From a virus, in IMG/VR virus record IMGVR_UViG_3300025704_001538, positions 1 to 64,000 of that record: DNA of 64,000 nucleotides; one strand, given 5' to 3'. The notes beneath the pieces were generated by a model. The model worked only from the letters and a program-made list of their open reading frames with translations, had not been told where the DNA came from and did no database searches. Every line of letters starts with the position of its first letter. Position 1 is the stretch's first letter. The translations under genes and the position numbers were made by a program. Positions 48,972 to 60,054 of this stretch are shown here, in pieces.

Positions 48972-49820
48972 TTATACTTCTAATTTATCTCCACCTTTAG
49001 TTAAATAAGTTTTTACTGGGCTTTCTTCATATTCTTTATCTAAAAACTTTTTTATTGATTCAATATTTCCTGGGTCATCATCAGAAAAACCAATTAAAGG
49101 AACAAAGTTATTCTTTACATCATTAGTAAATGTTACTTTTTGTCCTAGTTTCTGGCTTTGATATTTAACATAGTTTATAAATTCTCTTAAAGCTTTTATT
49201 TTACCTTCTTCAGGATTAGATGCTGAACCTTCACCATAAGTAACGGGATGATACTTACACATGTCTAAATATTCTTTTATAAGTAGTTGGTCGTCTTTTA
49301 AGACCTCTCCTGACAAATCACGATATTCTTTAAGGTTCCCGATAAGGGTCTGTGAATTAATTCCATTATGGTTTGTAACAATCATATTGTAGATTGCATC
49401 TTTTAAAACAGATGGTGTATGACCTCTAGCGGTTATAATCGCAAAAATAGAACCTCCGTTGATACACTCTACAAAATCACTCCACGATGGTCCCGGCTCC
49501 GCTAACATAGAGTCGACAATAAATCTTTTATCACCTTCTACACCGAAATTTCTGTAAGGATTTTCTGCGTATCCGACAATTAGTTCACCTTTATATTCAA
49601 AAGGTTCTCCACCTATTCTTTGTCTATATTCCGCGAAATCTTCAGTAGACATACCTACCTCATGACCATCATCAGCAACTAACATGATTTGAGTTGGCAT
49701 AGTTACGATATTATCATCCCAGTCAAAAGCATAATACTTGTGGTCGGGATTACCGTCTTCTATACCTTCACTAACTAAAATGTTATTGAGGTTTTTTCTT
49801 ATAATCTGTTTTAGACTCAT
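48972..49820 (-). CDS. HAD-superfamily phosphatase-like protein in the tail cluster
   Basis: 282 aa. HAD motifs: I, YAFDWDDNIV with D33 and D35; II, AIITARGHTP at ~130 with the conserved Thr; a candidate motif III Lys in PEEGKIKALREFI; IV, LIGFSDDDPGN at ~243. These suggest an active Mg-dependent phosphohydrolase; the substrate is unknown (nucleotide or polynucleotide phosphates are possible). The N-terminal 18 residues (MSLKQIIRKNLNNILVSE) form a basic helix like those on other proteins here. It lies between sheath and tube genes and starts five bases after a 45-aa ORF. A virion-packaged enzyme or repair/nucleotide function are both possible. Confidence 0.72.
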   Translation of the reverse strand: MSLKQIIRKNLNNILVSEGIEDGNPDHKYYAFDWDDNIVTMPTQIMLVADDGHEVGMSTEDFAEYRQRIGGEPFEYKGELIVGYAENPYRNFGVEGDKRFIVDSMLAEPGPSWSDFVECINGGSIFAIITARGHTPSVLKDAIYNMIVTNHNGINSQTLIGNLKEYRDLSGEVLKDDQLLIKEYLDMCKYHPVTYGEGSASNPEEGKIKALREFINYVKYQSQKLGQKVTFTNDVKNNFVPLIGFSDDDPGNIESIKKFLDKEYEESPVKTYLTKGGDKLEV

Positions 49821-55529: not shown

Positions 55530-55558
55530 TTGATAAATATTCGGTTATTTGTTATATT
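55530..55558 (+). promoter_or_regulatory. Putative early promoter of the SNF2 helicase gene
   Basis: TTGATA, 17-base spacer, TATATT followed by TA, giving a flavobacterial-type -7 box TATATTTA. Transcription would start near 55565, so translation must start downstream of the TTG at 55549. Confidence 0.45.
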
Positions 55559-55578
55559 TAACTGTATTTACTCTCGTA

Positions 55579-57333
55579 TTGGAAAATAAAACATTAAACA
55601 ACTTACCTGAAGTAAGGGCTCTACGTATTCTTGAAGAATACGATGGATACAATAACTATATCCTAAAACTTCAGTCTAAAATGAGGAAGTTTAATCATTT
55701 TAAGTTGACACGAGCTCAGTCGGATTACATAATAAAGTTTAATAAAGTAGTCCCTAAAATAGCTAGAAGGTGGGTTGAGTTAGATAGTTACTTCGCAAAA
55801 AAGTTAATGGACGACAAACTTTTAACTAAAAAACCCGAAAAGATTTATATTGAAAAACTTTTAGTTGAGAAAGAGAAGTCATATCACATATGGGGAAAAC
55901 TTTTCGATAAGGAGGAACTTTCAAGCATTTGGTTACCTAAAGTTGCTCTTCATAAGAATAGACAAAGAGAGGTGAATATAGACTATGAAAAGTATAGTCA
56001 TCGACCCCCACTATCACACCAAATAGAGGCAATAGAAAAATTAGTAGGTAACGACAAATATATTTTAGCGGATGACATGGGTCTTGGTAAAACCACATCC
56101 ACAGTAATAGCTTCTTTAGAAAATAACTCTGAAAAAGTTTTAATTATATGTCCCGCGTCACTAAAAATAAATTGGCAAAGAGAGATAGAAAACTACACAG
56201 ACAGAGATATTTCTATCATTGATGGTAAGAAATGGGAACCCTCGGATTACACAATAATAAATTATGACATTCTCAAAAACTTTCATGACCCAAAACATCC
56301 TGACAAATCAGATATTTTAAATTACGGTTTTGATTTGGTTGTTATGGATGAGGCTCATTATATACAAAACGTTAAAGCCGCGAGAACTAAAATCGCAAAC
56401 AACATAGCGAAAAAAGTAGGTAAAGTATGGTTGTTAACGGGAACTCCGATGACTTCACGACCCATGAATTATTATAATCTTTTAGATTTGGTTGATTCAC
56501 CTGTTGCCGAAAACTGGATGGCTTATGCAATAAGATACTGTGCGGGATACCAATTTAATGTTGGGGCAAAAAAAGTTTGGAATGTTTCAGGGTCTTCAAA
56601 TCTTGAAGAACTCCGAGACCGAACAAAACCTCAGGTTTTGAGAAGGTTGAAAGAAGATATTTTAGATTTACCCGAAAAGATTATCACACCGGTTTATTTA
56701 AAGTTAAAATCAAAAGAATACGAAAAATTAATGGGAGAATACTATGATTGGTATAATTCATCTGAAGAATCCACATCACTCACAATACAGTTCTCTAAAT
56801 TAATGAAAGTGAGACAGGTTATCGCTGAGAGTAAAATAAAAAACACTATAGAGTTGGCTCAGAACATAATAGACCAAGGAAAAAAGGTTATAATTTTTAC
56901 TAATTTTACAGACACTCTTAATAAGATTACCGACCATTTTGGTAAATCTGCGGTTAAACTTGATGGTAAAATGTCAAAACCTCAGAGACAATATTCAGTG
57001 GACGAATTTCAAAGTAACGAAAAAATAAATGTTTTTGTGGGTAATTTAAAAGCTGCGGGTGTTGGTATAACATTAACCGCGGCTGAAGCAGTTATAATGA
57101 ACGATTTATCATTTGTACCCTCAGACCATTCTCAAGCAGAAGACAGAGCTTATAGATACGGACAAAAATTTTCGGTGTCGGTGTACTACCCAATTTTTGA
57201 GAATGCAATAGAAGGTATCATATATAATATACTCAACAAAAAGAAAAACATTTTTGAGACAGTTATGGGTGATAACGAAGGAAAGGGTGATATAATGGAA
57301 GAAATACTAAATATGATTTCAGAAAAAAGATGA
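55579..57333 (+). CDS. SNF2-family DNA helicase (SMARCAL1/HepA-like)
   Basis: About 584 aa from the TTG at 55579 (VLENKTLNNLPEVRALRILE region). A TTG at 55549 lies inside the promoter, and the first ATG (55681) would cut conserved N-terminal sequence. SNF2 motifs: Q/I, ILADDMGLGKTT with K171; Ia, LIICPASLKINWQREI; II, DEAH at 257-260 (VVMDEAHYIQN); III, VWLLTGTPMTSRPMNY; V, AAGVGITLTAA; VI, QAEDRAYRYGQ near 519. SMARCAL1-type enzymes anneal or remodel stalled forks; a UvsW-like role in recombination-dependent replication is inferred. First of four plus-strand genes. Confidence 0.85.
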   Translation: MENKTLNNLPEVRALRILEEYDGYNNYILKLQSKMRKFNHFKLTRAQSDYIIKFNKVVPKIARRWVELDSYFAKKLMDDKLLTKKPEKIYIEKLLVEKEKSYHIWGKLFDKEELSSIWLPKVALHKNRQREVNIDYEKYSHRPPLSHQIEAIEKLVGNDKYILADDMGLGKTTSTVIASLENNSEKVLIICPASLKINWQREIENYTDRDISIIDGKKWEPSDYTIINYDILKNFHDPKHPDKSDILNYGFDLVVMDEAHYIQNVKAARTKIANNIAKKVGKVWLLTGTPMTSRPMNYYNLLDLVDSPVAENWMAYAIRYCAGYQFNVGAKKVWNVSGSSNLEELRDRTKPQVLRRLKEDILDLPEKIITPVYLKLKSKEYEKLMGEYYDWYNSSEESTSLTIQFSKLMKVRQVIAESKIKNTIELAQNIIDQGKKVIIFTNFTDTLNKITDHFGKSAVKLDGKMSKPQRQYSVDEFQSNEKINVFVGNLKAAGVGITLTAAEAVIMNDLSFVPSDHSQAEDRAYRYGQKFSVSVYYPIFENAIEGIIYNILNKKKNIFETVMGDNEGKGDIMEEILNMISEKR

Positions 57334-57373: not shown

Positions 57374-58921
57374 ATGGGAACTAAGTCAAAAATAGAAAAA
57401 ATACGAGAGATAGAAAACCGTATTATTACTGAAAAAATCGGTAATAAGTTACCCAGTCAAATAATTCAAGAAATGAAAAAAATAGGAATCGAAAGGTTAC
57501 CTTATTCTTATTCAGCCGTTGAACGTTTTATAGATAAAGAAACTATGAATGTTCATTATAACAAACACTATAAGGGATATGTTGAAAAACTCAACAAAGC
57601 GATTAAAGATAAGAGAGGTAAAGATAAGAATCTCGAAGACATTGTAAAAACAATATCAATGTTCGATTATACAGTAAAAAACAACGCTGGCGGAGCCTTT
57701 AATCACGCATTATTTTGGAAAATGTTGAGTCCAGAAAAACAAAGGTGTTCAGGTGAGATATATAAAAAGATAATTAAAGACTTTAAAACTTTTAATAATT
57801 TTAAAAGTAAATTTGAGTCCGTCGCACAAAAAAGGTTTGGTTCAGGATGGGTTTGGTTAGTTTTAACAAAAAATAATCGATTAAAGATAATGTCGACCCC
57901 GAATCAAGACAACCCTCTTATGAACACAATTAAAGGGGGTGGGTTTCCATTGTTAGGTTTAGACCTATGGGAACACTCATATTATCTTAAATATAGAAAT
58001 AAAAAAGATGATTATATAAAGAATTTTTGGTCAGTGGTTAATTGGTCATTTGTAAATGATTTATATAATAGTCAAAATAAGGGAACCTTGACTGAGTCAG
58101 TACGACCCAAGGAGTTATTAGTTGAGTCTGAAAGTTCAGGATGTTCATCAAGGGATGTGAAAGAAACTATCGATTTATTCAATAAAAACCCAAGAATTAA
58201 ATGGTCTTATAGAAAGGCGATAGATGAAATCTTTAAGGAAATATTTAAAGATTTTTGGAGAGAAAAACAAGGGGACCAGTTATCAGGTATTTATGATTTT
58301 GAGTATGAAGGTGTGGTCGAACCAGGAAGGTCAGTTCTAAATAAGATTAATACCAACGCAACGACATTTTGTCTATTAATGAATGATATGAACAAGGTGT
58401 TAAAGTATTACGGACACCAACCAATTAGTTTCAAAGGTAAAAGTGAAAGTCAACAAATAAAAGAGGTTTATAGATTTATAGGTTATATAAGAAATTTTAA
58501 AACAAGATTATTTGGACATGCGTCAAAAACGTTAACGAATATGTATAAAACTGTTAATAGAAGACACAAACAAGGTGACAGAACTGAACAAAATTCTGTC
58601 AAACTTTTAAATAAAATTTTTGGTGATGGAAATGTAAAACAAGTTGGTGAGATGGGTAGTGTCGTCGATGCGATAGGTGGAGTTGATGCCGTGATAAGAA
58701 CACCTGAAGGTGATAAAACAGCACAAATAAAACCATTTAAATACTATACAGAAGACGATGGTAAAATCATTATGTTTGATACGGGAGTTATAAAACCCTA
58801 TAAAACTGATTGGTTAGTTTTTCATAATAGCAAAAAAGGTGTAATGGTATTCGATAATAGTAATACTGAGATAATAGGGGGTAGATATGTCTTTAATAAA
58901 GAGGATTTATATAATACTTAA
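57374..58921 (+). CDS. Fe/Mn superoxide dismutase fused to a PD-(D/E)XK-like nuclease domain
   Basis: 515 aa. Residues ~40-232 are a complete Fe/Mn SOD: LPYSYSAVERFIDKETMNVH, then NNAGGAFNHALFW, then RFGSGWVWLVL, then GLDLWEHSYYLKY. All four metal ligands are present (H61, H111, D197, H201), as are Tyr69 and Gln178 in NQDNPL, as in Mn-type enzymes. A Ser-rich linker (235-258, with LLVESESSG) leads to a ~255-residue C-terminal domain whose end has E405, D438 and Q451-x-K453 (GGVDAVI, then TAQIKPF), a PD-(D/E)XK-like pattern. The N-terminus is a short basic helix ending IITE. It lies between SNF2 and neck genes. Dismutation of superoxide is expected; the fusion partner's role is unknown. Confidence 0.85.
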   Translation: MGTKSKIEKIREIENRIITEKIGNKLPSQIIQEMKKIGIERLPYSYSAVERFIDKETMNVHYNKHYKGYVEKLNKAIKDKRGKDKNLEDIVKTISMFDYTVKNNAGGAFNHALFWKMLSPEKQRCSGEIYKKIIKDFKTFNNFKSKFESVAQKRFGSGWVWLVLTKNNRLKIMSTPNQDNPLMNTIKGGGFPLLGLDLWEHSYYLKYRNKKDDYIKNFWSVVNWSFVNDLYNSQNKGTLTESVRPKELLVESESSGCSSRDVKETIDLFNKNPRIKWSYRKAIDEIFKEIFKDFWREKQGDQLSGIYDFEYEGVVEPGRSVLNKINTNATTFCLLMNDMNKVLKYYGHQPISFKGKSESQQIKEVYRFIGYIRNFKTRLFGHASKTLTNMYKTVNRRHKQGDRTEQNSVKLLNKIFGDGNVKQVGEMGSVVDAIGGVDAVIRTPEGDKTAQIKPFKYYTEDDGKIIMFDTGVIKPYKTDWLVFHNSKKGVMVFDNSNTEIIGGRYVFNKEDLYNT

Positions 58922-58941: not shown

Positions 58942-60054
58942 ATGTCTGCAATAACTGAACCACAAAGAAGTAAATTATTTACTAGAATAAAACACCTATT
59001 AGGAGCTCCTATAAGAGGTGTTGAAATAACCGATGAAATGATGGACTCACTATTAGAGTTGTCCATACAGGATTACGCTCAATATGTTAATGATTGGTTA
59101 ATAGAATCACAATGGACCTCGTTATATGGTTTAAATTTAGATGAACAGTCATTAACTAGAGCATTTATTAGTCGAAGTTTAGACTGGGAAACTCAGTATA
59201 CTTACGCATATTCTAAGATTGTGGGACTTCAAGCGGGGGGTGACTCCGTTTTGAAGAAAGATTATATTGATTTGGTTGCAGGACAACAGATTTATGAAAT
59301 ACCCAAAGGAAGAGAATTAAATGAACTTTTATGGTTTAGTCGAGCAGAATTAGACGCCGCTTATTTTGACCCATTTATGGGTGGATTTGGTGGTTTTGGT
59401 GGAGGAGGTTTAGGTGGTGGCGCTGGTTTTTCACAAATGGGTACTACAGGAAATTATTTTATAACTCCCGCTTTCGATATCTTATTAAGAATGCAGGATA
59501 TTAACATTAAAAGAAGAATAATTTCGGGAGAGTTAACATATAGAGTTACCGCACTTCCTAATGGTAAAAAGGCAGTACACCTAATGAACGTACCTGGAGG
59601 TAAGTTTGATTTCGGGAACCTTGAAAACAATCAATACAAAGTATGGTATTGGTATTACGAAACCGATGATAGGGACTCATGTTTAGCGGAAAACCCTGAT
59701 ATTGTTAGACTTCCTTCAGATATTCCGATAGATGAAATGTTATGGGATGAATTAAATAGTCCGGCACAGACATGGGTAAGAAGGTGGTTCACGTCATACG
59801 TAAAAGAATCATTAGGTAGAGTTAGAGGAAAATACCAGGGAAATTTAAAAACGCCTGATTCGGAGATACAATTAGAATACGATTCGTTATTAACAGAATC
59901 TAAAGATGAAAAATCTAAATTAATTGAAGAATTAACACAGAGATTAGAAAGGTTAAGACCTGACAAAATGATGGAGAGACAGGCAAGTGAGGCTGAAAAT
60001 TTAAATAAATCATTACAATATAGGGCATTCCCAAGACAGTTTTACTCTATCTAA
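58942..60054 (+). CDS. Neck protein, gp13-like
   Basis: 370 aa (T4 gp13 is 309). The N-terminus fits the gp13 neck family: RIKHLLGAPIRGVEITDEMM, then LLELSIQDYAQYVNDWLIES (helix, 'LGAP', then an acidic D..ld..l..al.dY..Y pattern). A Gly/Phe-rich loop (FMGGFGGFGGGGLGGGAGF) at ~145-163 is unusual and probably surface-exposed. The C-terminal helix (ESKDEKSKLIEELTQRLERL) is charged. gp13-type proteins complete the head and form the collar that joins head and tail. Followed one base later by a small beta gene. Confidence 0.6.
   Translation: MSAITEPQRSKLFTRIKHLLGAPIRGVEITDEMMDSLLELSIQDYAQYVNDWLIESQWTSLYGLNLDEQSLTRAFISRSLDWETQYTYAYSKIVGLQAGGDSVLKKDYIDLVAGQQIYEIPKGRELNELLWFSRAELDAAYFDPFMGGFGGFGGGGLGGGAGFSQMGTTGNYFITPAFDILLRMQDINIKRRIISGELTYRVTALPNGKKAVHLMNVPGGKFDFGNLENNQYKVWYWYYETDDRDSCLAENPDIVRLPSDIPIDEMLWDELNSPAQTWVRRWFTSYVKESLGRVRGKYQGNLKTPDSEIQLEYDSLLTESKDEKSKLIEELTQRLERLRPDKMMERQASEAENLNKSLQYRAFPRQFYSI

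Follow-up and report, generated by a model that had tools for sequence, protein, structure and literature searches.

A superoxide dismutase–nuclease fusion of large phages, plausibly a packaged polyprotein cut by the prohead protease

Results

An invariant fusion of a superoxide dismutase and a predicted nuclease

In the window, a stretch of 64,000 nucleotides (positions 1 to 64,000 of the IMG/VR virus record IMGVR_UViG_3300025704_001538), we identified a gene (57374..58921, + strand, from the open reading frame call) for a protein of 515 residues, in which an Fe/Mn superoxide dismutase (SOD), complete and of the Mn type, precedes a predicted nuclease domain with a PD-(D/E)XK (restriction-endonuclease-like) core. 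The fusion is certain in this family, as scans of viral contigs with the protein and with its C-terminal module retrieved 99 distinct full-length fusions besides that of the window. In the family alignment of 100 sequences, which includes the window's and a few that are near-identical to it, all four SOD metal ligands, Q178 and all nuclease residues are invariant (counts out of 100 below refer to this alignment). The explanation that we consider the best, with moderate confidence, is that a T4-like phage packages the product as a polyprotein, which would be cut by the prohead protease and delivered to the host. A chance fusion or an assembly artefact was considered and ruled out by the many independent contigs and the constant gene order.

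The first-pass annotation of this DNA knew of no described SOD–nuclease fusion. This stands as far as function is concerned, since we found no described fusion of a phage SOD with a nuclease, or link to packaging, in the open-access literature, but the fusion sequence itself is already present in public databases. The UniProt/BFVD entry A0A6J5L953, from an uncultured Caudovirales phage (501 residues, named only 'superoxide dismutase'), is a member of the family, because the match spans the whole model at 47% identity. When contigs of bacterial and archaeal genomes were scanned, no relative of the nuclease module was confirmed, and thus no bacterial source was found in those contigs.

The SOD module (residues 40-232; 57491..58069, + strand) is covered by Pfam Sod_Fe_N (E 2.3e-22, residues 40-119, 79.7 bits against a curated cut-off of 27) and Sod_Fe_C (E 1e-38, residues 126-229, 131.9 bits against 20.9), and the nearest solved structures in a PDB sequence search are all Fe/Mn SODs, with E-values down to 1e-58. 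The metal ligands H61 (57554), H111 (57704), D197 (57962) and H201 (57974), together with the Mn-type Gln178 (57905), all within 57554..57976 (+ strand), had been recognised in the first-pass annotation as those of a full Fe/Mn SOD, and the two Pfam domains and the 100/100 conservation confirm it. The sequence supports an SOD of the active type. In a tree with 40 sampled bacterial SODs, the phage SODs form a single group (support 100/100), and the closest bacterial SODs are mainly from Bacteroidota, at 43-52% identity.

The nuclease module comprises a helical region with a conserved GRSVxNKxNTN stretch (residues 254-394; 58133..58555, + strand), delimited from the alignment and the model, and a restriction-endonuclease-like core (residues 395-515; 58556..58918, + strand). 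The core includes E405, D432, G436, D438, Q451 and K453, each present in 100/100 sequences; E405, D438, Q451 and K453 make up a Gln variant of the E...D...(D/E/Q)xK motif. In the AlphaFold2 model, built from 45 sequences (predicted local distance difference test, pLDDT, 82.5), E405 lies within a helix, and D438 and Q451-x-K453 are on neighbouring strands. The structural matches of the final ~120 residues, both with Foldseek and with VIA-align 2, are PD-(D/E)XK enzymes. Foldseek ranks the homing enzyme I-Ssp6803I first among solved structures (E 0.012, probability 0.99), and the top rows of VIA-align 2 are Hjc resolvases (2wcw_D is the best, Z 8.6, 3.3 Å over 103 residues), followed by NhoI, HhaI and SPARDA nucleases. 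The C-terminal part has no family match in Pfam, PHROG, PADLOC or PDB-sequence searches; this includes resolvase families, for which Pfam and PHROG give no match, so that the likeness to Hjc is in the fold only. The middling Z combined with the invariant motif makes a PD-(D/E)XK nuclease fold very likely, in agreement with the pattern E405...D438...QIK noted in the first-pass annotation, and catalysis is predicted.

A stand-alone relative of the nuclease is found in the 735-kb phage LR756501 (L159:2980-3852, profile E 6e-20); used as a query, this relative found nothing in the viral contigs. A similar nuclease fold is also seen in an uncharacterised marine phage protein of 1113 residues (UniProt A0A8D9CCA0), possibly a larger polyprotein.

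Conserved protease-type sites at the module boundaries

The T4 prohead protease gp21 cleaves after L/I-X-E (PMC9026906), and motifs of this kind are found at each module boundary of the fusion (a slash marks the putative cut). Site conservation delimits an N-terminal leader (residues 1-33; 57374..57472, + strand), a putative capsid-targeting propeptide that ends with [LI]xE/M directly before the SOD; a hydrophobic-x-E is present at residue 33 in 83/100 sequences, with a variable leader sequence upstream. The linker between the two enzymes contains putative site 1, LTE/S (residues 239-242; 58088..58099, + strand; [LIVM]xE in 100/100), where the following residue is mostly S/T/G in the family, and putative site 2, LVE/S (residues 249-252; 58118..58129, + strand; [LI]xE in 99/100), where it is mostly G/S. 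E241 is invariant, and conservation extends to E251 and to the P3 residue of each site, amid mostly varying neighbours in a linker that is modelled as disordered (pLDDT <50 at 237-248).

We also surveyed 47 representatives below 85% identity for positions with [LI]xE in at least half of them. Six positions pass, namely the three at module boundaries, 33, 241 and 251 (fractions 0.83, 0.89 and 0.98), and residues 200 (0.89, part of the active site of the SOD), 289 (0.60) and 364 (0.70), the last two inside the nuclease. The first-pass annotation had proposed that a T4-type prohead protease separates the two parts at the linker LLVES and at an N-terminal IITE. Its proposal is supported for the type of cleavage and for the linker, as LLVE/S at residue 251 is kept in 99/100 sequences, but not for IITE (residue 20), which is kept in only 8/100; the conserved positions are rather residues 33, 241 and 251. 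From these sites, cleavage of the precursor by a prohead protease is likely.

Loss and exchange of modules

In three records the nuclease occurs without the SOD, and the N-terminal leader is joined straight to LILSE/S before the nuclease, so that these forms retain putative site 2. These SOD-less forms are nested among SOD-fused ones in the nuclease tree, and the longest of the records (308 kb) has no SOD elsewhere; thus loss of the SOD, cleanly missing at the locus, is probable. L291 instead encodes at this locus a protein of 873 residues with the arrangement SOD-[KLME/S..IIKE/E]-nuclease-[KLTE/S..LLLE/G]-nuclease. Five contigs carry this form, and their sequences are identical throughout the nuclease part. 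In it, the pattern K[LI]xE/S...[LI]xE is repeated between different module pairs. The two nucleases share 25% identity with each other and ~30% with P0002 (L170:5105-6061), which its motif marks as a paralogue of PD-(D/E)XK type (E 6.6e-10). The profile of the window-type nuclease misses them directly but does detect P0002 (E 3.2e-8 at a million sequences), so their link to the window nuclease runs through P0002.

Head genes of related viruses

A Peptidase_S77 gene, of the gp21 family, is present in 7 of the 12 records of relatives, among them all those that reach 160 kb or more. In 7/7 relatives the major capsid protein, which matches the PHROG major head protein, has LINE/A at residue 60, which we read as the counterpart of the T4 gp23 propeptide cut. 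The paralogue P0002 has the leader MKITISE/G, and its gene is placed between the protease and scaffold genes. Another nuclease paralogue (L276:4025-4939, minus strand, E 4.2e-11) starts with MKELIRKILRE, and the adjoining L276:4978-5649 (minus strand) has the identical leader before a different body. Near the major capsid gene, L173 encodes a long protein starting with YILSEDLAVWFG, with an LxE-rich internal stretch and then a peptidase-like domain, which may be another multi-enzyme precursor.

Leaders with [LI]xE across the genomes

In two relatives, residues 2-25 of the proteins contain [LI]xE[AGSN] more often than expected, with 45/314 in G003 (17.9±4.0 after shuffling) and 57/335 in G004 (18.8±4.1). 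These numbers derive from genes called simply as the longest open reading frames, and duplication may link the leader families within one genome, so that z-scores from shuffling overstate independence. The controls [LI]xD and [LI]xK in the same residues of G003 and G004 are not enriched. Many apparently unrelated proteins in these two records start with MKK-IRLTESDL...VKR-I-E or MK-IITES-L (for example L181:16500-16877, L181:19107-19478 and L195:6370-7395 in G003, and L295 and L305 in G004). These starts make up a family of N-terminal leaders that extends over the genome and has one [LI]xE site or two. Neither this family nor the string 'LTESDL' was found in the open-access papers searched, and a 23-residue leader peptide, a weak query, had no match in cultured phage records.

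In LR756501 (loci L307-L321) we observed N-termini similar to the capsid-targeting sequence (CTS) of T4, such as MIKTFDEFINE/S, and 15 of its 306 proteins have [FYL][IL][NTAS]E[AGSN] in residues 2-25, against 0.6 expected by shuffling. In the window itself, the product of 48972-49820 (minus strand) contains DWDDNI, a HAD-like motif, and has the N-terminus MSLKQIIRKNLNNILVSE/G; the G003 and G004 proteins that resemble it likewise have an early [IL]xE/G.

Gene neighbourhood and hosts

The gene lies between two co-directional genes, an SNF2/UvsW-like helicase upstream (55549..57333, + strand; Pfam/PHROG) and a head-tail adaptor downstream (58942..60054, + strand; phrog_211). Counting loci with enough flank, these neighbours are kept in 78/78 and 83/83 cases, respectively, which gives partial support to the late region in which the first-pass annotation had placed the gene. 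In 7/7 relatives an S21 gene is found near the prohead protease, on the opposite strand. The SOD relatives and this arrangement suggest a Bacteroidota host for the virus of the window, and the SOD–nuclease gene is a feature of a large, common virus group of Bacteroidota-type bacteria. Lake and marine metagenomes often contain these phages, so that the role of the fusion bears on how Bacteroidota hosts are taken over.

Discussion

We propose that the gene encodes a precursor of two enzymes destined for the phage head. The N-terminal leader, and perhaps also the linker, would target the precursor to the core of the prohead, as does the CTS of T4 internal proteins, and a gp21-type prohead protease would cut it behind the [LI]xE motifs near residues 33, 241 and 251. 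The products, a Mn-type SOD and a PD-(D/E)XK nuclease, would remain beside the packaged genome and be carried with it into the cell, where the SOD may remove superoxide close to the incoming DNA and the nuclease may attack DNA, most likely that of the host or of a competitor. Packaging and injection are plausible, and the idea of a possibly packaged protein, raised in the first-pass annotation, is borne out as a possibility by the boundary sites and by the gp21-type protease and capsid cut site of the relatives. Host DNA as the target is only a guess, somewhat less likely than not.

Several observations weigh against this proposal. [LI]xE is a short motif, and not every occurrence can be a cut site, since residues 289 and 364 are within the nuclease and residue 200 belongs to the SOD active-site LWEH. 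No prohead protease was found in the window's own record, a fragment of 72,959 bp. The leader, compared by eye with the T4 CTS MKTYQEFIAE, shows no close resemblance and has only the [LI]xE end in common. The nuclease assignment combines a motif with a fold of middling Z (8.6) and no sequence family, and an active nuclease packaged next to the phage genome would require a safeguard.

The conserved helicase neighbour could instead indicate a role in DNA metabolism. The protein might then be an uncut bifunctional enzyme of the cytoplasm, whose SOD keeps oxidative damage low during replication and whose nuclease, similar to a Holliday-junction resolvase, serves phage recombination, repair or packaging with the UvsW-like helicase. 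The helicase directly upstream at all 78 loci, the archaeal Hjc resolvases among the best fold matches and the presence of the nuclease module in all nine records searched (which were chosen for holding it) agree with such a role. However, the protease-type sites at the module boundaries are kept in 99-100 of 100 sequences and it is at these sites that SOD loss or cargo doubling occurs, and furthermore the relative G003 has a separate RuvC-like resolvase and a leader-bearing nuclease paralogue is found in the head gene cluster, all of which make this alternative unlikely.

The same evidence of sites, protease and capsid would also be expected if the protein were packaged and cut but acted on the phage side, with the SOD shielding the stored genome from oxidative damage and the nuclease trimming or clearing DNA during head maturation, and the adjoining head-tail adaptor gene fits this as well. 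Nevertheless, three records do without the SOD, and delivery to the host is the typical fate of T4-like internal proteins, so we give this possibility slightly less weight still. Finally, the SOD could be a dimerisation module of the nuclease, given that Fe/Mn SODs assemble as dimers or tetramers and that many PD-(D/E)XK enzymes are active in dimeric form; folding or domain packing would then account for the conserved [LI]xE positions of the linker, which would be left uncut. This is very improbable given the disordered linker of the model, the recurrence of K[LI]xE/S...[LI]xE between different module pairs and the existence of an SOD-less nuclease.

Returning to the packaged polyprotein, we tentatively extend it to a modular system, although we lean slightly against so broad a reading. 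T4-like Bacteroidota phages would string enzymes (SOD and one or two nucleases) on recurring double [LI]xE linkers, to be separated in the prohead by the head protease, with modules gained, lost and swapped, and the dozens of proteins with similar leaders would imply a large injected cargo. If packaging is true, tailed phages package an antioxidant enzyme and a DNA-cutting enzyme as self-processing cargo; the packaged viral SODs that we found described in the literature are from large eukaryotic viruses. Moreover, [LI]xE leaders and linkers would provide an easy rule to predict packaged, early-injected proteins among the unknowns of large environmental phages.

Comparison with known systems

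The window protein shares the complete SOD fold and Mn-type residues with the stand-alone Fe/Mn SODs of phages and bacteria, but differs from them in the fusion to a nuclease. With known PD-(D/E)XK nucleases (Hjc, I-Ssp6803I, NhoI, SPARDA nuclease) it has in common the fold of the last ~120 residues and the E...D...QxK pattern, whereas it has no detectable sequence-family match to them, an additional ~140-residue helical region, and a Gln in place of the usual D/E. The bS21-encoding Bacteroidetes myophages (PMC9723584), of up to ~330 kb and with Bacteroidetes hosts predicted in that paper, have S21 opposite in strand to a nearby prohead protease, as in the relatives described here; in contrast to the window family, the main text of that paper mentions neither a dismutase nor a nuclease. 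The chlorovirus PBCV-1 packages the Cu/Zn SOD A245R in its virion (PMC7019647), also a virus-encoded SOD, whose packaging was shown and would here be analogous; A245R is nevertheless of another SOD family, belongs to a eukaryotic algal virus and is not fused to a nuclease. The closest parallel in processing is with the internal head proteins of T4 (IPI-IPIII and Alt), which carry a CTS and are processed by gp21 (PMC9026906), as a leader ending in [LI]xE precedes the mature protein in both cases, and the related viruses have a gp21-family protease, a gp23-like LINE/A site and a cargo that varies between relatives. In contrast to the T4 internal proteins, the family described here would have a single precursor with two or three enzymes, internal sites, and a cargo of SOD and PD-(D/E)XK nuclease.
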